This document shows, piece after piece, positions 2,281-16,828 of a DNA stretch of 35,315 bases (its first letter is position 1; each line of letters opens with the position of its first letter). The notes below the pieces were generated by a model. That model saw only the letters and a program-made list of their open reading frames with translations, made no database searches and was not told the DNA's origin. The position numbers and the translations under genes were made by a program. The stretch comes from Candidatus Zhuqueibacterota bacterium (GTDB lineage: Bacteria; Electryoneota; RPQS01), in the NCBI GenBank assembly GCA_003818605.1, contig RPQS01000039.1:1-35315 (forward strand), read 5' to 3'.

Positions 2281-2313
2281 TCTGATCTATCATCCTTATT
2301 ACCGGAATAAACA

Positions 2314-2339
2314 AAATCCCAGCCGAAAGGCTGGGATTT
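2314..2339. terminator. bidirectional intrinsic terminator
   Basis: A perfect 11-bp stem, AAATCCCAGCC / GGCTGGGATTT, closes a GAAA tetraloop between two converging genes (FG-GAP protein on plus, fbp on minus). The A/T ends of the stem give short U runs in both directions. Confidence 0.85.
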
Positions 2340-2375
2340 GTGTGTATTGGGTATTTCGAAAATTCCGATGTTATC

Positions 2376-3398
2376 TTATCCGAACTGCCGGATGAACTCT
2401 CCGGCTTCGGTAACCTCTTGTCGGGATCCGATGAAGAGGGCCGTGCGCTCGTGAAGGCCTTTGGGTTGAACATCCAGAATCGGTTCGATACCGTTCGTGG
2501 CCGCGCCTCCCGCCTGCTCCATGATAAAGGACATCGGCGAGGCTTCGTACAACATGCGGAGCTTGCCTTTGGGTTTCTTGGGGTCTTTATAGTCCACGGG
2601 GTACATAAAGATGCCGCCGTAGAGCAAGGTGCGGTGGAAATCCGCCACTAAAGAACCGATGTAGCGGCTGGTATAAGTCTGTCCGGGATGCGCATCCGGG
2701 GCAATCAGATTGTCCACGTACTTGCGGGTTCCTTCACTCCAATGGCCGTAGTTGCCCATGTTGCAGCTAAAGACGTTGCCGTGTTCGGGAACGCGGATAT
2801 CGGGATGGGAAAGCAGGAATTCACCGATGGAGGGTTCGAGCGTGAAGCCGTAGACTCCCTTACCGGTTGTGTAGACCAGCATGGTGGACGATCCGTACAT
2901 GACATAGCCGGCCATGACCTGCCGCCGACCCGGTTGAAGCAAGTCCTCCGCCCTGCCGTCCCGTCCCGGAGTAATCTTGCGATGGACAGAAAAAATCGTT
3001 CCGATGTTGACGTTTGCGGCGATGTTGGACGAACCATCCAACGGATCGAAGGCGAGTGTGTATTTGCCCAAGTCGAACTGCGCCGGAATGTTAATAATGT
3101 CTTCCACTTCTTCCGACGTCATACAGCAGAGTACACCGATGTGATCAAACGCATTAAAAAACGTTTCCTGCGCGATCGCATCCAGCTTTTGAACGGCCTC
3201 TCCCTGAACGTTTACATCGCCGGTCGTTCCAAGAATGTCAATCAAACCGGCGCGGCGGACTTCCCGGTTGATGACTTTAGAGGCATAGGCGAGTTGGTAG
3301 AGCAATCTCGTGAACTGTCCGGTCGCTTCCGGATTCTGTCGCTCCTGATCGAGAATGTGCCGCTCAATCGTAATCAGGTTTGGCGTGGTTACGTGCAT
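2376..3398 (-). CDS. fbp: class I fructose-1,6-bisphosphatase
   Basis: Hydrolyses fructose 1,6-bisphosphate to fructose 6-phosphate in the cytoplasm, the committed step of gluconeogenesis. The 340-residue length fits class I enzymes. Visible family signatures are the GDVNVQGEAVQKLD segment, the acidic SEEVEDI motif that binds metal, and FDPLDGSSNI, the classic metal and phosphate site. Near the C-terminus are the conserved YTSRYIGSLVADFHRTLLYGG and RMLYEASPMSF-type stretches around the substrate pocket. The ATG at 3398 is preceded by GAGG. It is the last gene of the long minus-strand run, 21 bases after the HAD phosphatase, and ends at the terminator at 2314-2339. Very secure. Confidence 0.97.
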   Translation of the reverse strand: MHVTTPNLITIERHILDQERQNPEATGQFTRLLYQLAYASKVINREVRRAGLIDILGTTGDVNVQGEAVQKLDAIAQETFFNAFDHIGVLCCMTSEEVEDIINIPAQFDLGKYTLAFDPLDGSSNIAANVNIGTIFSVHRKITPGRDGRAEDLLQPGRRQVMAGYVMYGSSTMLVYTTGKGVYGFTLEPSIGEFLLSHPDIRVPEHGNVFSCNMGNYGHWSEGTRKYVDNLIAPDAHPGQTYTSRYIGSLVADFHRTLLYGGIFMYPVDYKDPKKPKGKLRMLYEASPMSFIMEQAGGAATNGIEPILDVQPKGLHERTALFIGSRQEVTEAGEFIRQFG

Positions 3399-3419
3399 AT
3401 CGTTTTTCCTCGCGGAAAT

Positions 3420-4058
3420 TTATAAAAGGGTCAACAATTCATCGTAATTTCGAATCACTGCGTCCGCCTCATGCAGATATTCGGCGGGCAGCGTCCGCGT
3501 GATCGCCACGGTGCGCAAACCGGCGGCGCGGGAAGATTGGATTCCCAACGGAGCATTTTCAAGTACGAGACATTCCTCCGCGCGAAAACCGGAGCGCTCG
3601 ACGGCGATCAGATACGGATCGGGCAGCGGTTTTCCTTTGGAATAATCATCGGCGGTGATAATGTGACGGAAAAGGGTCAGCTCCTCGGGAGTTACCACAC
3701 CGTTCATGTTGGAACGGATAGAACCCGTAACGATGTCGCATTCGACGCCGCGCAGGATGAGTTCGTCAATAAGCTTTCGCGCTTCGGGAATCAAGCCGTG
3801 TGGAGCAATCGTGCGGTAGAGAGTGCGCTTGCTTTCGATTAATGTGCGAAGTTCGTCCCGCGAAAGCGGCAATCCATGTTCGTCCGCCAGACGGAAAATC
3901 GTGTCTTCCGCCTTCTCCCCTTCATGCAACTCAATATATAAATCATCCAGCACGATTCCGTATTCACGCAAGATGGAGGTCCATGCTTTGTGGTGAGCGG
4001 GCATGGAATCTATAATCGTACCATCCAGATCAAAGAAAACCGCTCGAACTCCGCTCAC
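3420..4058 (-). CDS. HAD-superfamily phosphatase, beta-phosphoglucomutase-like
   Basis: A cytoplasmic HAD hydrolase of 212 residues. Motif I is FFDLDGTIID with nucleophile Asp10 and acid/base Asp12. The HKAW cap motif follows, then motif II around VTGS, motif III Lys in GKPLPDP, and motif IV in VLENAPLGI. This layout is that of the PGM-like subfamily (beta-phosphoglucomutase, phosphoglycolate or 2-deoxyglucose-6-phosphate phosphatases); the substrate cannot be told. The frame is open upstream to an ATG at 4127. However, a GTG at 4058 overlaps the TGA of the preceding SDR gene (GTGA), follows an AGGAGAGG site about 8 bases upstream, and puts motif I at the usual distance from the N-terminus, so I chose it. 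It lies between the SDR and fbp. Confidence 0.88.
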   Translation of the reverse strand: MSGVRAVFFDLDGTIIDSMPAHHKAWTSILREYGIVLDDLYIELHEGEKAEDTIFRLADEHGLPLSRDELRTLIESKRTLYRTIAPHGLIPEARKLIDELILRGVECDIVTGSIRSNMNGVVTPEELTLFRHIITADDYSKGKPLPDPYLIAVERSGFRAEECLVLENAPLGIQSSRAAGLRTVAITRTLPAEYLHEADAVIRNYDELLTLL

Positions 4059-4924
4059 GAATCCATCCTCTCCTGCTCCACAGATATTCTGCTTACACCA
4101 TAGAAGAATTTTATCATGCGATCCCATGCGCGATCCGTGAAAAACGGCCGGATTACCGAACTGACGCGCGCGGGCACGGTCAACACGTAGCGCGGTTTAG
4201 GTCTTCTTCGCTCGCATGCGCGCAAGATGACGTAGGCAACCTTATCCGCCGAAATCTCAAAATGCCGCTCACTGCGCCGTTTTTTCAATCGTTCGTACAG
4301 CTCATGGTAGAAACGCGGAAAGTCGGCCTTCGGAGGAACGATATTCAGATTGCTCATAAATCCTGTTTCCACCGGGCCGGGCAGTATGGAAACCGTCTGC
4401 ACTCCGAACGGCTCCAATTCCATGCGCATAGCATCGCTCAGCGCTTCCAATGCGAACTTCGAGGCCGAATACCAGCCGCCGAGCGGTATCAGGATTCGGC
4501 CTGCAATAGAAGAGACATTGACAATCCGCCCCCATCCCGCTTTGCGCATATCCGGTGCGATGAGCTGTATCAACCGCATGGCTCCGAAAACATTAACCTC
4601 GAACTGATGGCGGGCTTCGGATAGCGGAACGGCTTCCAGCAAACCCATTGAACCGTAGCCTGCGTTGTTCACCAGAACATGAATATCACCGAATGCGCTA
4701 TGAGCGAATTCCACGGCGGCAAGCAGCGAAGATTCCGAAGTGACATCACAGGTCGTGATGTACAACGTCAGTTTTTCGCGAGAGGCGATCTCCTCCAAAT
4801 CCTGAATCGCTTCCAATTTTCGTGCCGTAGCGACCACGCGATAGCCGGCCTGCGCAAAAAGCAGAGCCACGCTGCGGCCGATGCCGGTGGAACAGCCCGT
4901 GATAAATACCGTTCTATCAGGCAA
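4055..4924 (-). CDS. short-chain dehydrogenase/reductase (classical SDR)
   Basis: An NAD(P)-dependent oxidoreductase of 289 residues. It has the cofactor-binding TGCSTGIG (9-16), NNAG (86-89), Asn111, catalytic Ser139 in VNVSS, and YSASK with Tyr152 and Lys156, followed by a PGPVETGF stretch. ATARK after the second strand suggests NADPH preference (inference). The C-terminal part resembles retinol-dehydrogenase/DltE-like SDRs that act on lipidic or bulky substrates, but the substrate is unknown. The start is a TTG directly after the tryptophanase stop, supported by a GAGGAA site 8 bases upstream. It overlaps the next gene by 4 bases, so it is co-translated with tryptophanase and the HAD enzyme. 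Confidence 0.9.
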   Translation of the reverse strand: MPDRTVFITGCSTGIGRSVALLFAQAGYRVVATARKLEAIQDLEEIASREKLTLYITTCDVTSESSLLAAVEFAHSAFGDIHVLVNNAGYGSMGLLEAVPLSEARHQFEVNVFGAMRLIQLIAPDMRKAGWGRIVNVSSIAGRILIPLGGWYSASKFALEALSDAMRMELEPFGVQTVSILPGPVETGFMSNLNIVPPKADFPRFYHELYERLKKRRSERHFEISADKVAYVILRACERRRPKPRYVLTVPARVSSVIRPFFTDRAWDRMIKFFYGVSRISVEQERMDS

Positions 4925-6301
4925 TCAAACTTCCTCTAAACGCGCCGTGAAATGCCTGAGCATCGGCGCTTCATAGGTCAAGCGCAAGCCGCGCAGCTTA
5001 TCGCGATTCTTGTAAACCGCAACAATCGCATCCGCCACATAAGCCATGTGCGTATTCGTATACACGCGACGCGGGATTGCCAGCCTGACTAAATCCAGCG
5101 GCGGATACTCGACCTTACCGGTTTTCGGATCCTTTTCGGCAAACATCATTGAACCGATTTCCACCGCACGTATTCCCGCTTCGCGATAGAGAGCCACGGT
5201 TAAAGCCACACCGGGAAACTCAGACTGTGGAATGTGCGGGCAAAACGCCAGAGCATCAATAAAAACCGCATGTCCGCCGATAGGCTTCACCAGAGGAACA
5301 CCTCCGGCCATCAGCATTTCGCCTAAATAGCGGACTTGCTCGGTTCGATACTTGAGGTAGTCCTCATCCAATCCTTCATAGAGGCCGATGGCAATGGCTT
5401 CCAGATCGCGTCCCGCTAACCCGCCATAGGTGGGAAAACCTTCAATCAGAATTAATTTATTCCGGAGAGTCTGCGCGAGCTTTTCATCCTTCATAGCAAG
5501 AAAGCCGCCGATATTCACAAGCGCATCTTTCTTCGCGGACATCCAGCAGCCGTCGGCATAGCTGAACATCTCACGGGCAATGTCAATCACTTTTTTATTT
5601 TTGTAGCCCGCTTCGCGCTCATGAATGAACCAGCAGTTTTCTGCATAGCGCGCGCAGTCGAAAAAGAAAGGCACACCGTGCTTGCGGCAGATTTGCGATG
5701 TAGCCTTGATGTTTTCCATGGACACGGGCTGGCCGCCGGCGGAGTTGTTGGTCACCGTCATCGCCACCAACGGAATCGAACCTTTACGCTCGGTGAGCAC
5801 TTTCTCCAGAGCTTCCAGATTCATGTTGCCTTTGAACGGATGCTCGGTTTCCGGATGCAGCGCTTCGGGCACGGGAAGATTCAAAGCATCCGCGCCGTTG
5901 GCCGCAACGTTGGCATGCGTCGTGTCAAAATGCGTGTTGTTCGGAATCGTAATACCCGGACGGCATATCGTAGAGAACAACAAGTTCTCGGCGACGCGGC
6001 CCTGATGCGTGGGAATGACTTGCGGGAAGCCCGTGATGTCGCGAATGGCGGCTTCAAAGCGATAGAAGCTGCGCGAGCCCGCGTAGGCTTCATCGCCCGT
6101 CAGAAGTCCGCCCCACTGCTGATCGCTCATGGCGGAGGTGCCGCTGTCAGTCAGCAAATCTACGAAAATGGATTCGGAAGGAACGGCAAAAACATTGAGA
6201 CCGGCTTCCTTCAGATAGGCTTCACGTTCTTCACGGGTTGTCTGACGGATGCGTTCGACGGTCTTGATGCGGAAGGGTTCTACGGGGATGTTCATGAACA
6301 T
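4925..6301 (-). CDS. tnaA: tryptophanase (PLP-dependent beta-elimination lyase)
   Basis: Splits L-tryptophan to indole, pyruvate and ammonia; 458 residues, close to the family size. The whole chain aligns with tryptophanase and tyrosine phenol-lyase: DLLTDSGT, GDEAYAGS, PTHQGR, NSAGGQPVSM, and the PLP lysine (about Lys258) in SAKKD. Three positions separate the two enzymes. Asp126 (in FDTT) matches E. coli TnaA Asp137, where phenol-lyase has Thr. VEIGS occupies the place where phenol-lyase has its hydroxyl-binding Arg (SMER). His450 in RHFTARL matches TnaA, where phenol-lyase has Phe. All three favour tryptophanase, although much of the rest (AMSDQQWGG, MFSYADGC) resembles phenol-lyase. No TnaC-like leader with a Trp codon lies upstream. 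The start may be Met1 or Met3. Confidence 0.88.
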   Translation of the reverse strand: MFMNIPVEPFRIKTVERIRQTTREEREAYLKEAGLNVFAVPSESIFVDLLTDSGTSAMSDQQWGGLLTGDEAYAGSRSFYRFEAAIRDITGFPQVIPTHQGRVAENLLFSTICRPGITIPNNTHFDTTHANVAANGADALNLPVPEALHPETEHPFKGNMNLEALEKVLTERKGSIPLVAMTVTNNSAGGQPVSMENIKATSQICRKHGVPFFFDCARYAENCWFIHEREAGYKNKKVIDIAREMFSYADGCWMSAKKDALVNIGGFLAMKDEKLAQTLRNKLILIEGFPTYGGLAGRDLEAIAIGLYEGLDEDYLKYRTEQVRYLGEMLMAGGVPLVKPIGGHAVFIDALAFCPHIPQSEFPGVALTVALYREAGIRAVEIGSMMFAEKDPKTGKVEYPPLDLVRLAIPRRVYTNTHMAYVADAIVAVYKNRDKLRGLRLTYEAPMLRHFTARLEEV

Positions 6302-6342
6302 GTCGTGAAGGAATTCACGTCTCCAAAGCGGTTAAATCGGAG

Positions 6343-6363
6343 AATGATCCACGCGGGATCATT
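6343..6363. other. intercistronic hairpin between HD gene and tnaA
   Basis: A perfect 8-bp stem AATGATCC / GGATCATT closes a 5-base loop and touches the TAA of the HD gene. There is no U tract, so it is unlikely to end transcription. It may act as an RNA-processing or stability element in the 61-base gap before tnaA (inference). Confidence 0.4.
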
Positions 6364-6905
6364 TATTTCAGCAAATCGCGCAGCGGTTCAAAATTGATAA
6401 AATCGGCGTGGTGAATAATCACCGACGCGGGCGAACGGAAAGCTCCATCGCCTTCGTGCGCGTGCGTTGCGATGATGTGCTGGACTTCCACGGGCAAGCC
6501 GTGCTTAAGTGCGAGACCGGCGCCGGAAAAAGGATGACGCATGATTTTTCCGTTGTGGCTTTTCACAAAGCCCTTCTCGGTCTCGGTGTATTCCATGAGC
6601 TTGCCCACGTCATGCAGAACGGCTCCGCTCACCAGAATATCGCGGTCAATGCGGAAGAATTCATTGTAGGTGGCATCCATGACGTCGGCGATCTTCATGG
6701 ACGTTTGTACGACGGCTCGCATGTGCGTCAGCAGGCTCACCTTGCAGTTGGGAATAATCAGCGTGAACGGAATGCGATCGAGATCATCGAGCGTCCATCC
6801 GCCGAGGCTCAAAGCTTCCTGAAAAGCCGCGACGGTTTTATGACGCACTCCCACGTCGGTAATCCATTCTATTTCCGGGAATTTGGCGATCAGTTTTTCA
6901 GGCAT
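6363..6905 (-). CDS. HD-domain phosphohydrolase, function unknown
   Basis: A cytoplasmic 180-residue single-domain protein with the full HD metal-binding set: His61 (LLTHMRAV), His98-Asp99 (LHDVGK), His124 (RHPFSG), His148/His150 (ATHAHEGD), and His165-His166/Asp168 (IIHHADF). Such enzymes are metal-dependent phosphohydrolases, often acting on nucleotides; the substrate here is unknown. The N-terminal 50 residues show no second domain. The ATG has a GGAG site 6 bases upstream. It lies 18 bases after the glycosyltransferase gene and 61 bases before tnaA, so it is probably in the same transcript. An extra role in tryptophan or indole metabolism is only suggested by position. Confidence 0.85.
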   Translation of the reverse strand: MPEKLIAKFPEIEWITDVGVRHKTVAAFQEALSLGGWTLDDLDRIPFTLIIPNCKVSLLTHMRAVVQTSMKIADVMDATYNEFFRIDRDILVSGAVLHDVGKLMEYTETEKGFVKSHNGKIMRHPFSGAGLALKHGLPVEVQHIIATHAHEGDGAFRSPASVIIHHADFINFEPLRDLLK

Positions 6906-6923
6906 GACGGCTCCGGATTATTT

Positions 6924-8489
6924 TTATTCGATGTCTTGCTTGGTCGGCCACCACTGATCTTCCGGCGTGCGGCGGCGATAGACGGGAACACGGCCGATCT
7001 CCCCTTCGGGAAGATAGTTTTGGCGGAGGTAGTCGGCCAGCTCGGGATAGGTGCGCAGCGAATAATTGAAAAACGTAAACGTGTAGTTGTCTATCTGTAC
7101 GAGATCAAAAACATATTTCGGCTCGCGGCGTTCCAGATCTTCGATGAACATCTGCTGCGCGCGGGGATGACCGAACGCCCGTCGGGCGCGCTCCTCGAAC
7201 GGAGAGAACGTGCCGGGAGAAAATCCCGTAATGTAATGGCAAAGAAAATCGCGAACGCCCGGCAAGCGATGCGCGTGATAATAGATTTGTGGACAATAGC
7301 CCCAAACGGCAATGGTTTCGTCCGGCTTCGTGTGTTCGCGAGCAAACGCCCCGACCGCCAATTCTTCCTGCTCTTTTCCCAGCGCGAAAAACGAAATGCC
7401 GCGCGGCGGCGCGTAGTCGTCCCAATATCTCCACGTGGGAAAGTGCAGCAGCGCAACGGCGCAGCCGATGAACAGAGCCGCTCCGAGAATCCATTTTTTT
7501 GCCAGACTGCTGCGTGCGAAAGCGAACCACGCAGGGATCCCCCATAACGCCAGAACCGAAAAAGTCTGAATCCAATAATGGCCGAAGAAACGCGAGCCGG
7601 AACACAGCGCAGCGAAGGAGGCAATTCCGAGTAGGAATAAGAACTGCGCGCGCGGCGTATGCCGTTCCTTCCAAAGTAAAACGACACCGCCTAACGCCAT
7701 AATCACGGGCACAAACACTTGCAGGCAAAAATCCGCTGAGTTCAAATAAAGCGCCTGCAGAAACCCGCTCCAGCCTGTATCAGCGGCATAGGTCATGGGA
7801 TATCGGATCCACGAATCCCATGCCCAACCCAGACCGCCTTTAGCTCCGTACCAGATTAGAATCGGCAGCCAGATAAACACAAATCCCGCGAAAGCGAGGA
7901 TGATTCCGCGAACGCGGTCGGTAAATCTGAACCAGATAGCGGCAGCCGTCGGCAAGGCGAATGCAAGAAAGCTTTGCCGAAAAATCGTCGCCAATCCAAG
8001 TAGTACACCCGCACCGATCAATGCATTCCGGTTGTTCGGCTTCGACCAAACCAGACAGAGAGCAGCCGCAATACAAACGATGCCGGGCGATTCCACATTG
8101 AGGGCAATGATCTCATGCGGAATATTAAAACTGTTCGCAACCATCCAGAACAGCATCGCCGCGGGAATAGCCGCTGAGCGATCCCAAAGGGCGATAGCCA
8201 GTTCCACCACCAGCATTCCGGCCGCGATCATCAGCAGAATATGAGCGGCATGAATAACCGTTAAAGACCTGCCGAAAATGAGAAAGAGCAATTTGAAAAA
8301 GAGGACAATACCCGGCGGTTTGGTGGTGCCGAGTAGATCCACTCCGGGCAGCCAGCCTTGATCGAGCGCATCCGCTGCTACCGCGTATTCCGCTTCATCA
8401 ATATTATAAACGACGTCTTCTAAAAAGCCGGCACGGGATACGATCATCCCGACAATAATAATCAGCCACGCCCAAGCGCGCCGATTCAT
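6924..8489 (-). CDS. membrane glycosyltransferase of the GT39/PMT-ArnT type (GT-C fold)
   Basis: A 521-residue polytopic inner-membrane protein. The first loop carries NIDEAEYAVAADAL with the Asp31-Glu32 pair that is catalytic in GT-C enzymes, followed by TTKPPG. Some ten hydrophobic helices run to about residue 365, and a soluble C-terminal domain follows. Such enzymes transfer a sugar from a polyprenyl-phosphate donor to lipid or protein on the periplasmic side; donor and acceptor cannot be told here. It starts 7 bases after the PdxJ-like gene and shares its transcript. A polyprenyl synthetase that could feed its donor lipid lies further along the window (25084). Confidence 0.85.
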   Translation of the reverse strand: MNRRAWAWLIIIVGMIVSRAGFLEDVVYNIDEAEYAVAADALDQGWLPGVDLLGTTKPPGIVLFFKLLFLIFGRSLTVIHAAHILLMIAAGMLVVELAIALWDRSAAIPAAMLFWMVANSFNIPHEIIALNVESPGIVCIAAALCLVWSKPNNRNALIGAGVLLGLATIFRQSFLAFALPTAAAIWFRFTDRVRGIILAFAGFVFIWLPILIWYGAKGGLGWAWDSWIRYPMTYAADTGWSGFLQALYLNSADFCLQVFVPVIMALGGVVLLWKERHTPRAQFLFLLGIASFAALCSGSRFFGHYWIQTFSVLALWGIPAWFAFARSSLAKKWILGAALFIGCAVALLHFPTWRYWDDYAPPRGISFFALGKEQEELAVGAFAREHTKPDETIAVWGYCPQIYYHAHRLPGVRDFLCHYITGFSPGTFSPFEERARRAFGHPRAQQMFIEDLERREPKYVFDLVQIDNYTFTFFNYSLRTYPELADYLRQNYLPEGEIGRVPVYRRRTPEDQWWPTKQDIE

Positions 8490-8496
8490 GCGCCGC

Positions 8497-9177
8497 TCAA
8501 CCTAAAAGACTGCGGTATTCGGACACCGCTTGCCCCCACCCTGATCGCAAGGCCATAGCCCAGAGGTCGGGAGTGGGATAGATTTCTTCGACGTTGGGAA
8601 TGCGCGACAAGGCTTGCGGCAAGTGCCGTCCGGTCGGGCCGAACAACGCCGTGCGGAGGCGAACATGCGATGCGGCCAGCGTCGCGGAGGTTAAGCGAGC
8701 AATTTCCTCCTGCGTTTCGGCCAGAGTGGATAGACCGAACACTCTTTCCGTTGAGAAGACCGCCCAGTGTGCGCGCAACCGCGAGATTTCCTTCAAAGGC
8801 GCGGCTTCCGGTTCGATCAACACGGCAATTTCCTGATCGGTGCCGCCCGTGCGCGCCATGAACGCGGCCACGCGGGCAAGATCTTCCACCGGACGGCCTC
8901 GTTCACCGGTAATAAAGATGCGATCGGGAGCGGAACCTAATCCGGAGATGCGATCCAAGTCTTCGATTTCGGTCTTCACGGCCAACACAGGCAATCCGGG
9001 CCGCCGGAAGAGATCGGGAGTATACGAGGCGGAGGTTACAAACGCTGAAACGGGCAGCATGATAATCTGCGCACCGCCGTGAACGGCTCCATAGGCGATA
9101 TCCAGCAGATCCAAATCGGGCACGGCACGAGCGATGTGAAGACCGGGTTCGAGATCCAAACCGATCCGGAGAATCAT
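8497..9177 (-). CDS. PdxJ-like protein lacking the catalytic residues (putative pseudoenzyme)
   Basis: A 226-residue protein that lines up from end to end with pyridoxine-5'-phosphate synthase. LRIGLDLEPGLHIAR matches the PdxJ start (LGVNIDHIATLRNAR in E. coli), PDLDLLDIAYGAVHGGAQII matches the next helix and strand, LTSATLAASHVRLRTALFGP matches the KAATFAASLGLKVNAGHGL region, and the last 40 residues match the NIGHAII-AVxxMK end. But the E. coli catalytic His45, Glu72 and His193 align to Leu, Leu and Phe, and the HLRED-RHI phosphate/substrate stretch is gone. It is probably a TIM barrel with a changed or lost activity. The frame is open further upstream, but an ATG at 9177 overlaps the coaD stop (ATGA) and has GGAGGG 5 bases upstream. 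The assignment rests on remembered alignment. Confidence 0.72.
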   Translation of the reverse strand: MILRIGLDLEPGLHIARAVPDLDLLDIAYGAVHGGAQIIMLPVSAFVTSASYTPDLFRRPGLPVLAVKTEIEDLDRISGLGSAPDRIFITGERGRPVEDLARVAAFMARTGGTDQEIAVLIEPEAAPLKEISRLRAHWAVFSTERVFGLSTLAETQEEIARLTSATLAASHVRLRTALFGPTGRHLPQALSRIPNVEEIYPTPDLWAMALRSGWGQAVSEYRSLLG

Positions 9178-9662
9178 GCTCCCTCCATGCGAAATTTTTC
9201 CGCCAAAGCCTTTGCGATGGGTGCAGGAACGAAACAATCCACTTTCCCGCCATGCCGCGCGACCTCGCGAACAATGGAACTGTTCAAATACGAATATCTT
9301 TCATGAGGAAGCAAGAAAACCGTTGCTACTTTTTCCGCCAATTTGCGGTTGGTCAGAGCCATTTGAAACTCATAATCGAAATCCGACACGGCGCGAACAC
9401 CGCGAATGATGGCCACGGCTCCGTGCTCCACGGCGAAATTCACGATTAAACCGCGGCACACGGCCACTTCCGTATTGGGAATCTCGCGAACGGCTTCCTC
9501 AACTTGCTTGCGGCGCTCTTCCAGCGTGAAAAAGGTTGTCTTTGCCGAATTGGCGGCAAGAGTCACTATCACCCGATCGAATAATTCGGAGGCGCGGCGG
9601 ATAACATCTAAATGGCCGAACGTGATCGGATCGAAGGTTCCGGGGTAGATCGCGGTTTTCAT
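9174..9662 (-). CDS. coaD: phosphopantetheine adenylyltransferase
   Basis: Transfers AMP from ATP to 4'-phosphopantetheine, the penultimate step of coenzyme A synthesis. The 162-residue length is typical. Signatures are YPGTFDPITFGH with the nucleotidyltransferase T-x-G-H motif at 14-17, IIRGVRAVSDFDYE (86-98), and LNSSIVRE (126-133), the second ATP-binding motif. The start ATG overlaps the stop of the ATPase gene (ATGA), and the stop overlaps the start of the PdxJ-like gene, so translation is coupled on both sides. Housekeeping CoaD inside a signalling operon is unusual. Confidence 0.97.
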   Translation of the reverse strand: MKTAIYPGTFDPITFGHLDVIRRASELFDRVIVTLAANSAKTTFFTLEERRKQVEEAVREIPNTEVAVCRGLIVNFAVEHGAVAIIRGVRAVSDFDYEFQMALTNRKLAEKVATVFLLPHERYSYLNSSIVREVARHGGKVDCFVPAPIAKALAEKFRMEGA

Positions 9663-10087
9663 GAGGCAAGCGGCAGTTTTTTAATCATGATAATCTGCAT
9701 GCCGTCGGGCAGTCGTCGAATCTCCACATGATCCATCAAGGCACGGATTAAATGAAGACCCCGCCCGTGATCCTTCAACAGATTTTCGGGCAGCGTGGGA
9801 TCCGGGATCTCCTGCGAATAAAAACCGGGGCCATGATCCCTGACGGAAATCTGCATGTGGTCGGCATAACGCTCGATGCAAATTTCGACGGGAATTTCCG
9901 CCCGTTCGCCGTGAGCATGAACGATGGCGTTGCCTGCCGCTTCCGTAACGCATATTCCCAGATCCGAGCGCACTTCCTCGGCAAAGCCCATCTCGCGCGC
10001 CATGCGCTCCACGACTTGATCTATCTGCTCAAGCTGATCCAATGAAGACGGTAAACAAAGGGTTTCCACGGCTTGCGGTTCAGACAT
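9659..10087 (-). CDS. RsbW/SpoIIAB-like serine kinase (anti-sigma-type ATPase)
   Basis: A single GHKL ATPase domain of 142 residues. The N box is EAAGNAIVHAH (Glu49, Asn53), the G1 box DHGPGF (84-89) and the G2 box DHGRGLHLI (106-114). Proteins of this type phosphorylate a STAS antagonist and hold a sigma factor or another target. The matching STAS protein and PP2C phosphatase are encoded directly upstream, so a three-part partner switch is likely. No sigma factor gene is in the window. It overlaps the SpoIIE gene by 8 bases and coaD by 4. Confidence 0.9.
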   Translation of the reverse strand: MSEPQAVETLCLPSSLDQLEQIDQVVERMAREMGFAEEVRSDLGICVTEAAGNAIVHAHGERAEIPVEICIERYADHMQISVRDHGPGFYSQEIPDPTLPENLLKDHGRGLHLIRALMDHVEIRRLPDGMQIIMIKKLPLAS

Positions 10088-11603
10088 ATTTGATTACCGA
10101 AATGGTCAAATCATCCTGTACGGAATCCACCATCTGAAATTGGTGGACGGAATCACTAATGCGGCGAACCATCTCTCCTGCGGGCAAATCGCGCAGTTCG
10201 CGGACTAAAGACGTGAGTCTGTCTATCCCGAATTCGCTGCCCGCACTGTCATAGGCTTCGGTCACACCATCCGTATAAAAAACCAGAATATCGCCGGGTT
10301 CAAGCCGGATCGCCGTTTCCTCATAGTCCACGTTGGGAAACGCTCCCAGTAGCAGACCGCCAACCTGCAGCCATTCGATACTGCCGTCCCGGCGCATGCG
10401 AAACGGCGGGTTATGTCCGGCATTCGCATAGCTGAACATGTGATTCTGCCGGTCCAGTACTCCATATACGGCGGTGACGAAGCTCTCCGGCAAGTTCGTC
10501 TCGTAGAGATAATCGTTGACTTTGGAAAGGATGGCGCGAACCGTAAAATTGTTGCGCGATTCGATGCGCAAACAAGCCCGGAAATTCGCCATCAAGAGAG
10601 CCGCTCCCACCCCATGCCCCGTGACATCGCCGACCGCCACTCCCATGTCGGTTTGCGTGATGGGGATGAAGTCGAAATAGTCTCCGCCGACTTCACTGGA
10701 TGGGAAATTCGTGCCCGCCAAATCATACGGTGCAAAATCGGGTGTTTTTGTAGGCAAGAAGGAGGCTTGGATTTTCCGAGCGAGCGAAATTTCTTCCTGC
10801 ATGCGGCGCGAGTGCAGGCGAATCCGGTCGGCGCGCGCGCGCTCCAGAGCCACTCCCGCATGGTTGGAAAAAGTCGTGAGGCTGCGCAAGTCCCGTTCAC
10901 TGAAAGCGTCCATCCTGTCCGCTTCCAGATTCAGCGCACCGATGACTTCACCCCGCAGCAGAATCGGCACGGCCAATTCCGAAAGAGTGCCTTCTCTGGC
11001 CGCAATATAACGCCGATCCTTGCGAACATCCGGGTCATAAATGGGCTGCCCGGTCTGAATGACCGTGCCTACGATCCCATGGCCGATTTTCACGCCTTCC
11101 TGAAATTTCTGGTGAAGCTTCTGCCGTTCGGATTTCTCGTACCCCACGAGCATGTCTATTTCCAGCTGTCCCATCTCGCGGTTGTAGACGAAAATACCGG
11201 CCGCGTCAAAATTCACGACCTGCCTAAGGGAATCGAGAATGGTGTGCAGAACATCCTCAATCGCGGATGAGCTGGAGAGCTTCATACTGATTTCCATCAG
11301 CGTCTGATTCTCCTGACGCTCACGCTCGACTTCGCGAAAGAGTTCCAGCACGGCTTCGCCGCGAACCGCCTCGCGCCAGACCGTTAAAAAACGGTCCGCA
11401 AGGTCTGTATCGGTCCGGCCGTCACGCAGCGACTGAACCAAGCGACCACTCAGATCCGCCAGCTCATGAAGGCGTTCGCCCAATAACTCCAATCGGTCGC
11501 CAAAGGACGCCCGCGAAGCCGAAGACGGGGATTCCGCATGCAGAAGATCGTGAATCAGCGATGTCTCCGTAGAATTACTTGAAGCTGGCAACAGCGGCGT
11601 CAA
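10080..11603 (-). CDS. GAF-domain SpoIIE/RsbU-type PP2C serine phosphatase
   Basis: A cytoplasmic signalling phosphatase of up to 507 residues with no membrane segment. A helical N-terminal region (30-105) leads into a GAF sensor domain (about 110-255) and then a PPM/SpoIIE domain (about 290-505). The metal-binding Asp residues sit in GGDYFDF (Asp308) and GDVTGHG (Asp326), with FYTDGVTEA and QDDLTI further on. It is expected to dephosphorylate the adjacent STAS protein in response to a small ligand or redox cue sensed by GAF (inference). The start is uncertain: the TTG at 11603 lies 29 bases inside the STAS gene without a clear ribosome-binding site, while a CTG at 11558, just after the STAS stop, has GGAG 6 bases upstream. 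Confidence 0.92.
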   Translation of the reverse strand: MTPLLPASSNSTETSLIHDLLHAESPSSASRASFGDRLELLGERLHELADLSGRLVQSLRDGRTDTDLADRFLTVWREAVRGEAVLELFREVERERQENQTLMEISMKLSSSSAIEDVLHTILDSLRQVVNFDAAGIFVYNREMGQLEIDMLVGYEKSERQKLHQKFQEGVKIGHGIVGTVIQTGQPIYDPDVRKDRRYIAAREGTLSELAVPILLRGEVIGALNLEADRMDAFSERDLRSLTTFSNHAGVALERARADRIRLHSRRMQEEISLARKIQASFLPTKTPDFAPYDLAGTNFPSSEVGGDYFDFIPITQTDMGVAVGDVTGHGVGAALLMANFRACLRIESRNNFTVRAILSKVNDYLYETNLPESFVTAVYGVLDRQNHMFSYANAGHNPPFRMRRDGSIEWLQVGGLLLGAFPNVDYEETAIRLEPGDILVFYTDGVTEAYDSAGSEFGIDRLTSLVRELRDLPAGEMVRRISDSVHQFQMVDSVQDDLTISVIKYV

Positions 11604-11913
11604 CCGTGGAATGAGTTTCGAATACTGAATTGAGTTTGGTAATCACCAAGAGCGACGTGATCTTGTCGGTGGCGCGGGCCAGTTTGAGTTCGCCTCCGGA
11701 ATTGCGGGTGGTCGTCAAAGCGGAAATCAACAATCCCAAGCCGGAACTGTTCATCCATTCCACTTCACCCAAGTCCAGAATGAGTTTGTGTTGTCCGGCC
11801 ACAACCGCTTTTTTCAACTCATCGTGGAATTCCGCGGACTCCGGCCCGCCCATGATCTTGCCCTTTAATGCGAATACCACAATCCCGTCTTTTAAACCTG
11901 TCGAGTACTTCAT
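11575..11913 (-). CDS. STAS-domain anti-sigma factor antagonist (SpoIIAA/RsbV-like)
   Basis: A 112-residue single STAS domain. The phosphorylation site is Ser56 in VEWMNSSGLGLL, the equivalent of B. subtilis RsbV Ser56. It should cycle between phosphorylated (by the RsbW-like ATPase) and free forms (by the GAF-SpoIIE phosphatase), both encoded just downstream. The start is well set by GGGAGGAG upstream of the ATG. It follows the XRE gene after a 74-base gap in which I see no clear terminator or promoter. Confidence 0.94.
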   Translation of the reverse strand: MKYSTGLKDGIVVFALKGKIMGGPESAEFHDELKKAVVAGQHKLILDLGEVEWMNSSGLGLLISALTTTRNSGGELKLARATDKITSLLVITKLNSVFETHSTVDAAVASFK

Positions 11914-11987
11914 CGGTCTCTTCTCCTCCCGAATGAGTTTTTTGACCTATTGAAATCGTTTACAGTGCACCTATTCCGCGCGTTCGT

Positions 11988-12404
11988 TCACCGGGCAATT
12001 CGATTCTTGCGAAAATCGAGAAGCGCTTCGATGAAGAACTTTTTCGAGGGACGGTACCGTGAATCCACGCGGATGTTTTTAAGCACGCTCAATTCATCCG
12101 GCGCCGGATTCATCAGCAGCATTTGTTCGTGATCCGCCAACAGTTCCGCCAGCCCTTCATAAACCGGGCCTTGCGCCTCATCCACGGTTACTAAACCGCT
12201 GATTTCGTGCCCCAGCACGAGGTCTTCCACGGCAATCTCCAATCCTCCCGCCACCTTGTCAAGAAATTCAAAAGTGGGAGACGACTTTCCGTTTTCCACC
12301 AGAGACAGATAGGACCGATTAACGTTTATCCGATCCGCCAAAGTCTCCTGCGAGTGCCCAGCTTTCTTGCGGGCTTGCCGAATACGGTCACCGATCTTTG
12401 ACAT
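11988..12404 (-). CDS. XRE-family transcriptional regulator
   Basis: A 138-residue DNA-binding protein. An N-terminal Cro/C1-type helix-turn-helix (about residues 6-60, with SQETLADRINVNRSYLSLVENGKSSPTFEFLDKVA split as SQETLADRINVNR and SYLSLVENG) is followed by a roughly 75-residue helical C-terminal part with no recognised domain (GLAELLADHEQMLLMNP, then a basic end). It leads the twelve-gene run, directly behind a consensus promoter that contains a dyad, so it probably regulates its own operon (inference). The ATG has no obvious ribosome-binding site and the predicted leader is only about 25 bases. Confidence 0.9.
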   Translation of the reverse strand: MSKIGDRIRQARKKAGHSQETLADRINVNRSYLSLVENGKSSPTFEFLDKVAGGLEIAVEDLVLGHEISGLVTVDEAQGPVYEGLAELLADHEQMLLMNPAPDELSVLKNIRVDSRYRPSKKFFIEALLDFRKNRIAR

Positions 12405-12435
12405 ATGTGGAGTGGGTTAAGTTGAAGTTGTAATC

Positions 12436-12464
12436 AATATACAGAATTCCGGCGGAATTGTCAA
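12436..12464 (-). promoter_or_regulatory. consensus sigma-70 promoter of the XRE-to-fbp operon
   Basis: On the minus strand a perfect TTGACA (12464-12459) is followed by exactly 17 bases and TATATT (12441-12436). Transcription would start near 12429, about 25 bases before the XRE start codon. It is the strongest promoter-like sequence I found in the window and the only clear one in the 10-kb minus-strand run. Confidence 0.8.
12445..12459. promoter_or_regulatory. dyad operator inside the XRE promoter spacer
   Basis: AATTCC-GGC-GGAATT is a perfect 6-bp inverted repeat with a 3-base centre, placed exactly between the -35 and -10 boxes. A repressor bound here would exclude RNA polymerase. The adjacent XRE protein is the obvious candidate (inference). 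Confidence 0.55.
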
Positions 12465-12506
12465 CTATCTTCGACGTTTTGGGGAAATGTTTGTTCCCTA
12501 TAGAAC

Positions 12507-14216
12507 TCAGAAACCTTTAGCAAATCCGTTCACTCGGCTGTCTGACGCGCCCCACCAACCGGAACGGGCGGTGTCGGCCATAATTGCCGTAGCCGCCGCC
12601 CAACGATTCTGCTGACGGATTGTATGCCCTTTGGCTCGCAATGCAGAAAGAACATCAAAAGGATATTCCGGTTCCATATAGAGAACATCCGGCATCCATT
12701 GCTGATGAATACGCGGAAAGTCCATCGCTTCCTGACTGGTCATGCCAAAGTCGAGCATGTTGATCAGAGCCAGAACAACGCTGGTAATAATCCGCGGCCC
12801 GCCCATGCTTCCCGCAATAATGAACGGTTTTCCATCCCGCAGTAAAATTGTCGGCGACATGGAGGATAGCGGCCGCTTGCCCGGCTGAATTTCATTGGCC
12901 TCATTGCCCACTAAACCGAAGTAATTCGGTTTTCCCGGCCAGGTCACAAAATCATCCATCTCATTATTCAAGAGAAATCCTAATCCGGGAACGATCACGC
13001 CGCTGCCGAACGGAGTATTAACCGTCGCAGTCAGCGAAACGGCATTGCCGAACGAATCTACCACACATAAATGCGTCGTATGTTTCAGCGGCGGCAGGGA
13101 ATCTGCTTCCAGAGAATAAGCCCAGGGATTGCCCGCGCCGGGTAATGGTTCATGCGTAAGCCGGTTGATTCTTGATCTTTGCGCATCCGCATAGTCTTTG
13201 CTGATTAAACCCGCAGCCGGCACTTTCACAAAAACCGGATCGCCCAATAATGCCGCGCGATCCGCAAAGGCAATCTGCATGGCCTCGGCAATGATATGCA
13301 CAACTTCCGATGAACCCGCTCCCCAGTATTTCAAATCGAACGGTTCGAGTAAATTGAGAATCTGTATCAAATGCACTCCGCCCGAACTGGGAGGCGGCAT
13401 GGATAGCACCTGATAACCTTTATAGTCGCCGCGAACGGGCTCCCGCGTTAAAGGCTGATAACCGGCAAAATCTTTTTTACTGAGTATTCCGCCGTTTGCC
13501 TTCATGTGCTCTTCGACTATTCGTGGTACATCCCCCGTATAAAATGCTTCAATCCCGCCGGTCTGGACGCGCCGCAGCGTGTTCGCTAAATCAGTCTGAA
13601 CCAAACGATCTTGAAAACGCAGCGGCACTCCATTCCGGAAGAAAACAGCTTTGGTTCCGGGGAATCTGCCGAGTAGATCGGCATTTGAATTCAAAGACCG
13701 CGCGTAACGGCGATTGACAATAAATCCCGTGTCGGCCAGAGCAACCGCTCCGTTGAATGCCGCCGCAAAAGGCAGCCGGCCATAGGTCCGCACAGCCAGA
13801 TCAAGGGCGGCAAGCTCCCCGGGTGTGGCCGCCGCCAAGACACCTTCCGTGGAAAGTGTGGAAGCCTGCGTCGTATCGCGCGGCACATACATTTTGCGCG
13901 TGGCAAGCGCGGGAGCCGTTTCCCGGCCGTCAATGCAAACGGATGTTCCGTCCGCCATGCGAATTAAAATGAAACAACCGCCGCCGATGCCGCTGGAATA
14001 ACCTTCCGTCACTCCCAAGGCTAAAGCCACGGCCGCAGCGGCATCCACCGCATTTCCGCCCTGCCGCAGGATATCCAGACCGACCTCCGTAGCCAAGGAA
14101 TCCGCACTGGAAACCATTACATGCGGAGCCCATGCAGGTTGGGGCGAGGCAGCGTGCGAAAGCGGCCCTGCAAATAGAAAAATAATAACCAACAAGAAGA
14201 CGGAAAGGAATTTCAT
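12507..14216 (-). CDS. ggt: gamma-glutamyltranspeptidase, exported
   Basis: An N-terminal nucleophile hydrolase that cleaves glutathione and other gamma-glutamyl compounds in the periplasm. I place the start at the ATG at 14216, because it gives a proper signal peptide (MKFLSVFLLVIIFLFAGPL, cleavage near HAA) and a 569-residue protein of normal size. The frame is open back to 14312, but that extension looks unlikely. Substrate Arg99 (DGRETAP) is present. Self-cleavage would occur before Thr381 in KHTTHLCVVD, giving large and small subunits, and the small subunit carries the GG pair (GSMGGPRII) of the oxyanion site. It is a single gene between the M14 terminator and the XRE promoter, and has no strong terminator of its own. 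Confidence 0.93.
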   Translation of the reverse strand: MKFLSVFLLVIIFLFAGPLSHAASPQPAWAPHVMVSSADSLATEVGLDILRQGGNAVDAAAAVALALGVTEGYSSGIGGGCFILIRMADGTSVCIDGRETAPALATRKMYVPRDTTQASTLSTEGVLAAATPGELAALDLAVRTYGRLPFAAAFNGAVALADTGFIVNRRYARSLNSNADLLGRFPGTKAVFFRNGVPLRFQDRLVQTDLANTLRRVQTGGIEAFYTGDVPRIVEEHMKANGGILSKKDFAGYQPLTREPVRGDYKGYQVLSMPPPSSGGVHLIQILNLLEPFDLKYWGAGSSEVVHIIAEAMQIAFADRAALLGDPVFVKVPAAGLISKDYADAQRSRINRLTHEPLPGAGNPWAYSLEADSLPPLKHTTHLCVVDSFGNAVSLTATVNTPFGSGVIVPGLGFLLNNEMDDFVTWPGKPNYFGLVGNEANEIQPGKRPLSSMSPTILLRDGKPFIIAGSMGGPRIITSVVLALINMLDFGMTSQEAMDFPRIHQQWMPDVLYMEPEYPFDVLSALRAKGHTIRQQNRWAAATAIMADTARSGWWGASDSRVNGFAKGF

Positions 14217-14258
14217 GGGAATTTCTGGTTGAATCAACAGGGGAAAATGCGGGCCTTC

Positions 14259-14287
14259 AAGATAGTAAATCCACAGGTAACTCGCAA
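14259..14287 (-). promoter_or_regulatory. weak promoter candidate for ggt
   Basis: On the minus strand TTGCGA (14287-14282), 17 bases, then TATCTT (14264-14259), about 40 bases before the ggt start. Each box matches the consensus at 4 of 6 positions. Confidence 0.3.
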
Positions 14288-14295
14288 AGAGGTGT

Positions 14296-14325
14296 AAAAA
14301 AGGAAGGGGCACTTGCGTGTCCCTT
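14296..14325 (-). terminator. intrinsic terminator after the M14 carboxypeptidase gene
   Basis: On the minus strand AAGGGACAC and GTGCCCCTT pair around a GCAA loop (8 of 9 pairs), followed by CC and six T residues (14301-14296). It separates the protease genes from ggt. Confidence 0.75.
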
Positions 14326-14345
14326 CACAATAGCATGAAAACCAA

Positions 14346-14370
14346 GAGATCAGCGCTTATCGCTGATCTC
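14346..14370. other. perfect hairpin around the M14 stop codon
   Basis: GAGATCAGCG / CGCTGATCTC is a perfect 10-bp stem with a 5-base loop. The TAA stop of the carboxypeptidase gene (14357-14359) lies in the loop. It is followed on the minus strand by only a short T-rich run, so it may assist the main terminator 20 bases downstream or protect the mRNA end. Confidence 0.55.
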
Positions 14371-16828
14371 GACGATCCACTGAAATGGGGAGATCCGGCG
14401 GAAAAGCAAATCCCGAAACTGCTTTGACTTGATAAAAGAACGGTCCCGGCTCAGCTACAGCCTCCGTATCAACATATATTGTCGTATCGCTGGTACCGAT
14501 AGAATCAAATTCACCGGTAACGGAATCGGCTCGTTCAATAACATAGGCCAAAGCAAACCCCGACGGATTCCAGCGCAACTCAATACCTTCGGAGGTCCAA
14601 TATGCCGTCAATCCCATGGGCGATTCCGGAATCGCGGAAGTTGCCATAATCGGCACACTGACTACCGGCGTGATCACATCGTTGCTGTGTATTTCCAGCG
14701 CCGAATGCGAGATTTCTCCACAAAGCAGACTGCCGTCCACGAGTAATCTCAGCGTGTCGGTTTGACCGGGCGGCAGCATTCCGCTGGATGGGCTGACGGA
14801 AATCCAACGCGGTCCCGTCGCAAATCTGCGGGCGATATTATTGCCGACACCGGTTTGATTGGATAATATGGTTAAGCCCATGGAGCGCGTATCATTCTGA
14901 ATGGCGATGGTCGCGCTATTCAAACGAAGAGTGCCCATATTGCCGTAAAATATCCGGATATCGCCGTTAGATGTAATCAGGATTTGGAAATTGTATGTTC
15001 CTTGCGGCGATGTGCCGGCACGGACGTTTTCGTAATGTGCCGCGGCGGAATCCACTCCATTCGTCCAGAAACGAATATTCGTTCCGGCAAGCTGTGGCTT
15101 CAGATCATCCCACCAGCCGCAAATCGCGGCCGCCGGGCCGGACACCGAAGGCAGAGCCCGATTGGAAGAACTCGTATACGTACTGTCTATAAAGCTGATC
15201 CAGCCATTTGCGGAAATCCACAGCCGGCTGTAAAGATGTCCATAGAAAGGAAAATCGAATCCCAACGCGTACGGGCCGCGGACGGCGTCTCCTTCGGTTG
15301 TACCGAAAGTCAAGGGAGTCCCCAACGTAGAAATCGGCAACCACTGATAAGCCGGGCCGCAGGCTTCTTCGGAATCCTGCCAATGATAGCCGAAAGCATC
15401 CGGACCGCCTGTATCCCTTGTGGCCGCACCATTGGCAAATACCGCCGTCCAGGCCATGTCCCGGCCGCCGTTGTTACTCACATAGATTTCTCGAGTCGTT
15501 GTCTCTGTTGTCCCGACAGCGATATCCAAATCCATCGGAGTGACAACGGTCACAGGCGGCGCTTGTCCAAGCGTGCCGACATACCGCGCGAAAAACAGAT
15601 TTGCCTGAAGATTTTCCGCCGCGAGGGGAATAATGCGGCTGGGCGCAGGCCAGAAATTGTCGGTTTGATTACCCACTTCCGTACTCACGGAATACATTTT
15701 CTGATGCTGCGTGGTATCCCCGTACTCCCAATCGAAGGAACCGCCGTTTGTATTGTAAAGCAGCTCCCATGCGGTGCCGACCTCATAGGACACGCCGTTG
15801 ACGCTTTGAATAGCCGTCGCCATGGAGTCTACAATTAAACGGAATTCCACGTCGTCCTCGGTGATCCCCGTTCCGTGGAAATAGTTGGTTCCCCATGGAA
15901 TGAGTACGAGGTTTGAATATGTATGATAGTCTATACTGCCGACGAAATGGCGCGCGTTGATGAAATCGCGCAGTCCGGCCGTTTCCGGTTCGGAAAAGGC
16001 CGCCGCGCCACGATACGTAATATCGCTGGGATCTCCCGATGACCCTTCGTCATCCAAGCCCCAGGTATATCCCCAGTTTCGGTTCAGGTCTATCCCGTAG
16101 CTGCCATCATAGTTGAGACGGCGGTTTTTCCGGTACATGCCGCCGCCGTTCGGATTGGTCTGGCGGTTGTATTCATAGCCGTCGGGATTGACACAGGGAA
16201 CAAAAAAGAGTTCCCGATTATTCACAATTTCCGTAACCTGCGGATTCGTCCCGTAATTATCGAGCAGATAATTCATGAAGTAAATAACGACTTCCATACC
16301 CGCCGGCTCGCGAGCATGGATCAATGCATTATAAAATAGTTCCGGCTCATCCTCATCCACATCCGGATTATCGCTGATCTTCAAACACCACAAGTCGCGC
16401 GATTCGATGCTGGTTCCGACGGAAAAACGCGCGGTGGTTATGGCCGGGAATCGGCTGTGCATGGAATCCAGGACCGCTATGATTTCCGCCCATGTTTTGT
16501 ATCCGCCCATATCATCCAAATGCCCTTCGTCCCGCGCCCGATCGGCATAGAATCGTTCCAGATCCTCATGAATCACTTCATGTCGAAATCCCGCCCGGTT
16601 CAGCAGATCAAGATCTTCGGGCCGAGCGACAATCATGGGTTCGTATTTTGTAGGACCCGGAACAACATCCAACTGCAGGGAGAGCAACTCCTTGAGGCGC
16701 ACGTCCGATGCGACGTCTACTTTAACTAATGCATGATGGCGGTATTCGGATCCGGCATAAACGACAAGACTCCCAAACAAGGGAAGTGCGGTCAAAAAAA
16801 GTACACAAATAATTCTCCGCAAGAGCAT
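14357..16828 (-). CDS. secreted M14 zinc carboxypeptidase with accessory beta-rich and FN3-like domains
   Basis: An exported metallopeptidase of 823 residues. A signal peptide (1-25) and a propeptide-like region lead to the catalytic domain (about 105-415). Zinc ligands are His171 and Glu174 (HAREPAG) and His302 (SIDYHTYS), and the catalytic base is Glu384 (VSTEVGNQ). Substrate-binding stretches NPDGYEYNR and DLNRNW are present. After it come a beta-sandwich linker (IYVSNNGGRDMAWTA), a module of about 190 residues with YGHLYSRLWISANGWISF and WWDDL, another sandwich segment, and an FN3-like domain (about 735-815). The C-terminus lacks a type IX sorting domain. It follows the subtilase by 39 bases, so the two are probably co-transcribed and act together on external proteins. 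Confidence 0.92.
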   Translation of the reverse strand: MLLRRIICVLFLTALPLFGSLVVYAGSEYRHHALVKVDVASDVRLKELLSLQLDVVPGPTKYEPMIVARPEDLDLLNRAGFRHEVIHEDLERFYADRARDEGHLDDMGGYKTWAEIIAVLDSMHSRFPAITTARFSVGTSIESRDLWCLKISDNPDVDEDEPELFYNALIHAREPAGMEVVIYFMNYLLDNYGTNPQVTEIVNNRELFFVPCVNPDGYEYNRQTNPNGGGMYRKNRRLNYDGSYGIDLNRNWGYTWGLDDEGSSGDPSDITYRGAAAFSEPETAGLRDFINARHFVGSIDYHTYSNLVLIPWGTNYFHGTGITEDDVEFRLIVDSMATAIQSVNGVSYEVGTAWELLYNTNGGSFDWEYGDTTQHQKMYSVSTEVGNQTDNFWPAPSRIIPLAAENLQANLFFARYVGTLGQAPPVTVVTPMDLDIAVGTTETTTREIYVSNNGGRDMAWTAVFANGAATRDTGGPDAFGYHWQDSEEACGPAYQWLPISTLGTPLTFGTTEGDAVRGPYALGFDFPFYGHLYSRLWISANGWISFIDSTYTSSSNRALPSVSGPAAAICGWWDDLKPQLAGTNIRFWTNGVDSAAAHYENVRAGTSPQGTYNFQILITSNGDIRIFYGNMGTLRLNSATIAIQNDTRSMGLTILSNQTGVGNNIARRFATGPRWISVSPSSGMLPPGQTDTLRLLVDGSLLCGEISHSALEIHSNDVITPVVSVPIMATSAIPESPMGLTAYWTSEGIELRWNPSGFALAYVIERADSVTGEFDSIGTSDTTIYVDTEAVAEPGPFFYQVKAVSGFAFPPDLPISVDRRDQR

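Follow-up and report, generated by a model that had tools for sequence, protein, structure and literature searches.

The window, by which we mean the whole stretch of 35,315 nucleotides that was analysed, carries on its minus strand twelve genes that all run in the same direction, from a gene for an XRE regulator at the head to one for a fructose-bisphosphatase at the end. From first gene to last, the unit and the hairpin beyond it are laid out as follows:

11988-12404, minus strand: XRE regulator of 138 aa, with an HTH_3 domain and a DdrO-like C-terminal region
11575-11913, minus strand: STAS-domain protein of the anti-anti-sigma type
10080-11603, minus strand: GAF and SpoIIE-type PP2C phosphatase
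9659-10087, minus strand: RsbW-like HATPase_c_2 kinase
9174-9662, minus strand: CoaD, pantetheine-phosphate adenylyltransferase (above the curated cut-off)
2376-9237, minus strand: PdxJ-like, PMT_2, HD, tryptophanase/tyrosine phenol-lyase family, SDR, HAD and class 1 fructose-bisphosphatase genes
2314-2339, both strands: terminator-like hairpin past the last gene

That these twelve genes make up one unit had been proposed in an earlier note on this DNA, and the proposal is borne out by synteny, by a promoter scan and by the terminator-like hairpins on either side; it is well supported that up to twelve co-directional genes form one unit behind the XRE promoter. Relatives within the order, where their contigs reach far enough, largely keep the gene order, apart from some genes lost or inserted; L071, for instance, gave no PdxJ-like, PMT_2 or HD gene. 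In loci outside the order, these genes do not follow XRE in any of the seven that were checked (7/7). A consensus scan placed the flanking hairpins at 14370-14346 and 2339-2314, detected several weaker hairpins inside the unit, and returned no other sigma-70-like site in the minus-strand stretch 2000-14500. No second promoter was found between the XRE and STAS genes, either in the window or in 11 relatives. Three family members (L015-L017) have an extra STAS gene, placed after XRE and ahead of the usual one. The PdxJ-like ORF (8497-9237) falls just under the Pfam cut-off and has a doubtful TTG start that overlaps coaD; translation probably begins at the internal ATG of MILRIGLDLEPG. The member of the tryptophanase/tyrosine phenol-lyase family (4925-6301) scores above the subfamily cut-off and below every equivalog cut-off.

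The STAS protein, the PP2C phosphatase and the HATPase kinase, which together characterise a partner-switching system, are all encoded here. As in modules of the RsbW/RsbV/RsbU type, the STAS, GAF-PP2C phosphatase and HATPase kinase genes stand in a row, and they do so order-wide; unlike in those modules, an XRE gene stands at the head, and none of the scanned genes encodes a sigma factor. The literature search found no report joining Calditrichaeota with partner switching.

Ahead of the XRE gene lie the promoter and two further sequence features, listed here in the direction of transcription:

12493-12506, minus strand: block A, GTTCTATAGGGAAC, a candidate regulatory site of 14 bp centred at about -70 from the predicted transcription start
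12459-12464, minus strand: -35 hexamer TTGACA (TTGACA in 12/13 and TTGATT in 1/13 order-level orthologues)
12445-12459: perfect palindrome of 15 bp, AATTCCGGCGGAATT, in the promoter spacer (in 1/13 orthologous promoters; probably no conserved operator)
12436-12441, minus strand: -10 hexamer TATATT (TATATT in 10/13 and TATCTT in 3/13 orthologues)
12429, minus strand: predicted transcription start, placed from the position of the -10 hexamer

An XRE orthologue is present in 13/13 genomes of the order, the window's own genome being counted among the 13. The TTGACA and TATATT hexamers that had been claimed at a spacing of 17 bp were confirmed at 12464-12436 on the minus strand, and the placing of the promoter holds across the orthologous loci: in all 13 the hexamers (TTGACA, with one TTGATT, and TAT[A/C]TT) are exactly 17 bp apart, and this conservation of both hexamers and spacing indicates that the promoter is real. 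The distance from the promoter to the aligned XRE start is 26-39 nt over the 13 loci, and the predicted start at 12429 would agree with the position of the -10 hexamer. The window's own genome holds 48 TTGACA-N17-TATATT sites, and the reversed control has none there, so that this type of promoter is evidently common there; exact TTGACA-N16..18-TATATT sites number 55. With conserved -35 and -10 hexamers at a spacing within 16-18 bp, the site appears from its sequence to be an ordinary, strong sigma-70-type promoter of the clade, lying ahead of the XRE gene. It would drive the XRE gene and probably also the other eleven genes of the unit.

A second promoter, TTGTTGACAATTA...TTTCGTATATT, is alike in four genomes, where it stands ahead of a lipoprotein-like gene (412-426 aa) at G008:C5:27391, G003:C103:5260, G009:C130:3911 and G005:C17:2552 (L132-L135). 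The sequence TTGTTGACAA, which overlaps the -35 hexamer, was considered as an operator and rejected: it is found in 5/13 XRE promoters, yet the 13 genomes also have it at 8 unrelated sites, and so it looks like general promoter context.

Operators with a dyad of about 15 bp are common among XRE regulators, and a palindrome is indeed present within this promoter (7-1-7, 12445-12459). An inverted repeat between the hexamers had been described before; the repeat is there and is perfect, but on the minus strand it reads AATTCCG-C-CGGAATT, with arms of 7 bp about a 1-bp centre and not the 6-3-6 arrangement that had been given. Nor does it lie exactly between the hexamers, since it does sit in the spacer but shares the last base of TTGACA and ends 3 bp before the -10 hexamer. 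When the spacer of the XRE promoter alone was shuffled, arms of at least 7 bp arose in 0.6% of shuffles; when the spacers of the 55 like promoters were shuffled, at least one such dyad was obtained in 27% of trials (0.31 expected). In the window as a whole there are three 7-1-7 palindromes, against 3.3 +/- 1.6 in dinucleotide shuffles, and palindromes with 7-bp arms at all gaps of 0-8 are commoner than in shuffled sequence (46 against 27 +/- 6). The dyad is notable for the XRE promoter alone and unremarkable genome-wide.

Comparison with the orthologous promoters is what separates the dyad from the promoter in which it lies. The palindrome is not found in the other 12 orthologous promoters of the order, which leaves it in 1/13 of the promoters whose regulators have the same recognition helix, and the nearest orthologue (same genus, XRE protein 84% identical) has the spacer GTTCTGGCGGATTTCCG, without the dyad. 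The recognition-helix stretch VNRSYLSLVENG[K/R]SSPT occurs in 13/13 XRE proteins with a single K/R difference, and with a helix that is essentially invariant one would expect an operator held in common to have been kept. Seven family loci have an upstream region that can be aligned; among them each of the two hexamers has a mean pairwise identity of 1.00, the spacer one of 0.45, the stretch just downstream one of 0.30 and neighbouring upstream stretches 0.43-0.46. By this measure the spacer (45%) is at background. Symmetry about the dyad centre extends to 2.9/8 paired positions in the 13 loci and to 2.6/8 when the window is left out, the mean for all centres scanned being 2.0 (sd 0.51); in the other 12 loci it is slightly high and not distinctive.

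A regulon sharing the dyad, as had been envisaged, was not found when the window's own genome was searched: the dyad has 20 places at up to one mismatch (a palindrome being counted once per place), and none is a second promoter copy. All 19 other near-matches lie within ORFs, 18 of them in ORFs of at least 120 aa and the remaining one, at 14209, inside the ggt ORF, and since all are coding there is no sign of a regulon. For the reversed control pattern the genome gave 2 matches against these 20, so near-matches to the dyad are the commoner. The right half of the dyad resembles CGGANTTCYG, which is weakly recurrent just before the -10 hexamer in four loci. Among the matches listed, which do not cover G000 and G001, exact CGGANTTCYG occurs in the XRE promoter of G002, in that of G003 and at one other place, which is in G006; these hits come partly by construction, because the pattern was built from the same promoters, and a shifted dyad beside the -10 hexamer was not adopted as an element.

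Block A lies directly past the ggt stop codon and is found at a fixed distance, 27-28 nt upstream of the -35 hexamer, in 7/13 orthologues; it is not recognisable in the other 6/13 loci. Its mean pairwise identity (as a 15-mer, in 7 loci) is 0.68, against 0.43-0.46 in the flanks and the spacer. L009 and L010, which belong to one genus, agree at 25/25 positions in block A and its tail and at 7/17 in the spacer; in the pair L005/L006 the spacer agrees at 12/17 and block A at 9/15, so the contrast between the two is absent there. Block A is kept in L006 even though ggt lies about 3.3 kb upstream in that locus, and it therefore seems to be part of the XRE promoter. In G003 and G009 it takes the form GTTCTTTATAGAAC, a perfect 5-4-5 palindrome of the type GTTCT-N4-AGAAC; the half-site GTTCT is the same as the opening five bases of GTTCTYT, the consensus of SinR (PMC3163267). 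The palindrome is not preserved in L007, L011 and L013, and an element that is recognisable in 7/13 loci, with a good palindrome in 2-3, would be no universal operator either. At up to two mismatches block A has 25 sites in 6 genomes, two of which are the XRE promoters themselves. As a regulon box it was rejected, since 19 of the 20 contexts examined (from 23 further sites) lie within ORFs; the one exception, in G003:C131, lies outside called ORFs and is not established as a promoter, and no further promoter-located copy was established among these 20 of 23 sites in the 6 genomes. An exact copy in the window's own genome lies inside a 686-aa ORF.

The protein encoded by the first gene appears, from its HTH_3 domain and its C-terminal region, to be a regulator of the DdrO/ImmR type. 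By sequence it matches DdrO over query positions 3-129 (6jq1, E 1.4e-10; 6rmq, E 8.3e-10), its family profile matches DdrO over positions 2-131 (E 1e-12), and the top five Foldseek hits of its predicted fold are DdrO (E 1.6e-6 to 1.1e-5). The whole-chain TM to DdrO is only 0.43-0.49, for a predicted model with a mean pLDDT of 85.5 and a pTM of 0.49, and the similarity to DdrO in the C-terminal region, which would be the dimerising part, appears weak. The best HTH match of the XRE profile is SinR (E 4.4e-15), a match that ends at position 71.

In Deinococcus, the repressor DdrO is cleaved by IrrE. A peptidase ORF with an HExxH motif adjoins the XRE gene in 14/19 non-family loci, and PF06114 (M78, ImmA/IrrE) was confirmed in 9/9 of those scanned, the remaining 5 of the 14 calls resting on the motif and the surrounding sequence. 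XRE-M78 gene pairs outside the family lie, for instance, at L012:1890-2510 and L014:896-1564. In the other 5/19 non-family loci no adjoining peptidase was found; L025 has no called downstream ORF in the stretch examined. Within the window's family, the STAS gene directly follows XRE in 10/10 testable loci (the contig of G009 ends too soon), and a search for PF06114 gave 0 hits in the window's own genome (93% complete) and none at the window, so the partner M78 peptidase gene is found in neither. M78 proteins do occur elsewhere in the genomes of six other family members (G001, G003, G004, G005, G007 and G008). The peptidase gene thus appears to be missing next to XRE in this family, and proteolytic control may have been lost with it.

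The residues of the window's XRE protein that align with the DdrO cleavage site are V-D, with Asp aligned to P1'; in DdrO itself the R109E variant is uncleavable (PMC4374696). Asp is the second aligned residue in 7/11 family proteins (L005-L011) and in 0/19 others, and the first aligned residue is Leu/Phe in 19/19 non-family and 2/11 family proteins. Leu/Phe is also kept in L026, L027, L028 and L031, non-family loci with other downstream genes, so the V-D change is no clean mark of peptidase loss. Those XRE proteins that are paired with M78 here are without the full DdrO cleavage motif.

Of the known systems, DdrO of Deinococcus, which is controlled by IrrE/PprI, comes close in size (129-132 aa, against 138), in its HTH_3 domain and short C-terminal region and in its full-length sequence and profile match, and relatives of the XRE protein are encoded beside an M78 peptidase. 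It differs in that promoters of the window's type have no conserved 17-bp palindrome and in that the window's family has no adjoining peptidase and an Asp at the P1'-aligned residue. In a DdrO regulon several promoters share an RDRM-like palindrome; for the window's dyad, the search of its genome gave no second promoter copy. The ImmR/ImmA pair of ICEBs1 resembles the XRE repressor and M78 antirepressor pair of most non-family relatives, and the HTH of ImmR is among the PDB matches of the XRE protein; unlike ICEBs1, the cluster is conserved across the order, with no mobile-element genes among those scanned, and lacks a peptidase partner at the window. SinR of B. subtilis has the closest HTH by profile, and block A has GTTCT half-sites as in GTTCTYT; here the differences are that the profile match covers only the HTH and that the palindromy of block A is not conserved. 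The literature search showed no occurrence of DdrO in the Caldithrix abyssi genome paper, and for operators between promoter elements it gave one unrelated paper, on MarR.

That the XRE protein shuts off its own unit, as had been supposed, stands as far as the promoter and the unit are concerned; the dyad as its operator does not, being absent from 12/12 other orthologous promoters, and a palindrome found in a single genome is probably not the proposed switch. It is common for XRE proteins to bind upstream of the genes that encode them (PMC12565409), and autoregulation here would for that reason be plausible. The comparison shows that the promoter is conserved and the dyad is not, and that the peptidase gene adjoins XRE in most relatives outside the family and is missing here. 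We consider it probable that the dyad is a lineage-specific and likely chance feature of the spacer and that the XRE operator lies elsewhere, with block A as the best candidate. The spacer palindrome would most likely be a chance product of a drifting spacer and no operator of the XRE family, and the regulator, if it acts on its own promoter, would more likely use another site, for which block A (12493-12506) is the foremost candidate.

The most specific form of this explanation, and one compatible with it, is that block A is the XRE operator or the upstream site of another regulator, acting by class-I-like activation or by cooperative repression. This is a tentative possibility, as is the preference for block A over the spacer dyad as a cis-element candidate; it draws on the fixed distance to the -35 hexamer, the identity in 7 loci, the retention in L006, the palindromes of G003 and G009 with their SinR-like half-site and the HTH match to SinR, and it is weakened by the loci in which block A is unrecognisable or has lost its palindromy and by the want of another established promoter-located copy at the 20 sites examined. 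That the dyad is a true operator of recent origin, through which XRE blocks RNA polymerase at its own promoter, is unlikely. Such an operator would suit a perfect 7-1-7 repeat that lies between the hexamers and overlaps the -35, a probability of 0.006 for the spacer of the XRE promoter alone, and the habits of the protein class, in which XRE proteins are often autoregulated (PMC12565409) and DdrO binds its own promoter (PMC4374696); it is at odds with 12/12 other orthologues that have the same recognition helix and no dyad, with the 27% of shuffled sets in which one or more of the 55 like promoters gained such a dyad, and with the lack of another promoter copy in the genome. Any dimeric repressor could make use of a palindrome placed between promoter hexamers, and this one is perfect, but that a regulator other than XRE reads it is very improbable, as no second promoter has the dyad and it is not conserved.

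To return to the preferred reading, in which the promoter is conserved and the dyad is a chance feature, the promoter appears to be an ordinary one and the history of its regulator mildly interesting. A well-placed, perfect palindrome in a single promoter can mislead; orthologous promoters separate the promoter from the dyad and point elsewhere. It is conceivable, if improbable, that a DdrO/ImmR-type repressor left without its M78 protease and cleavable site has had its control passed to the adjoining STAS-PP2C-RsbW genes, from proteolytic to phosphorylation-dependent, through an upstream site and not the spacer. A DdrO-like repressor that is without its protease partner family-wide, and that has kept its DNA-reading helix, would offer a natural test of what becomes of such a repressor without the enzyme that cleaves it.
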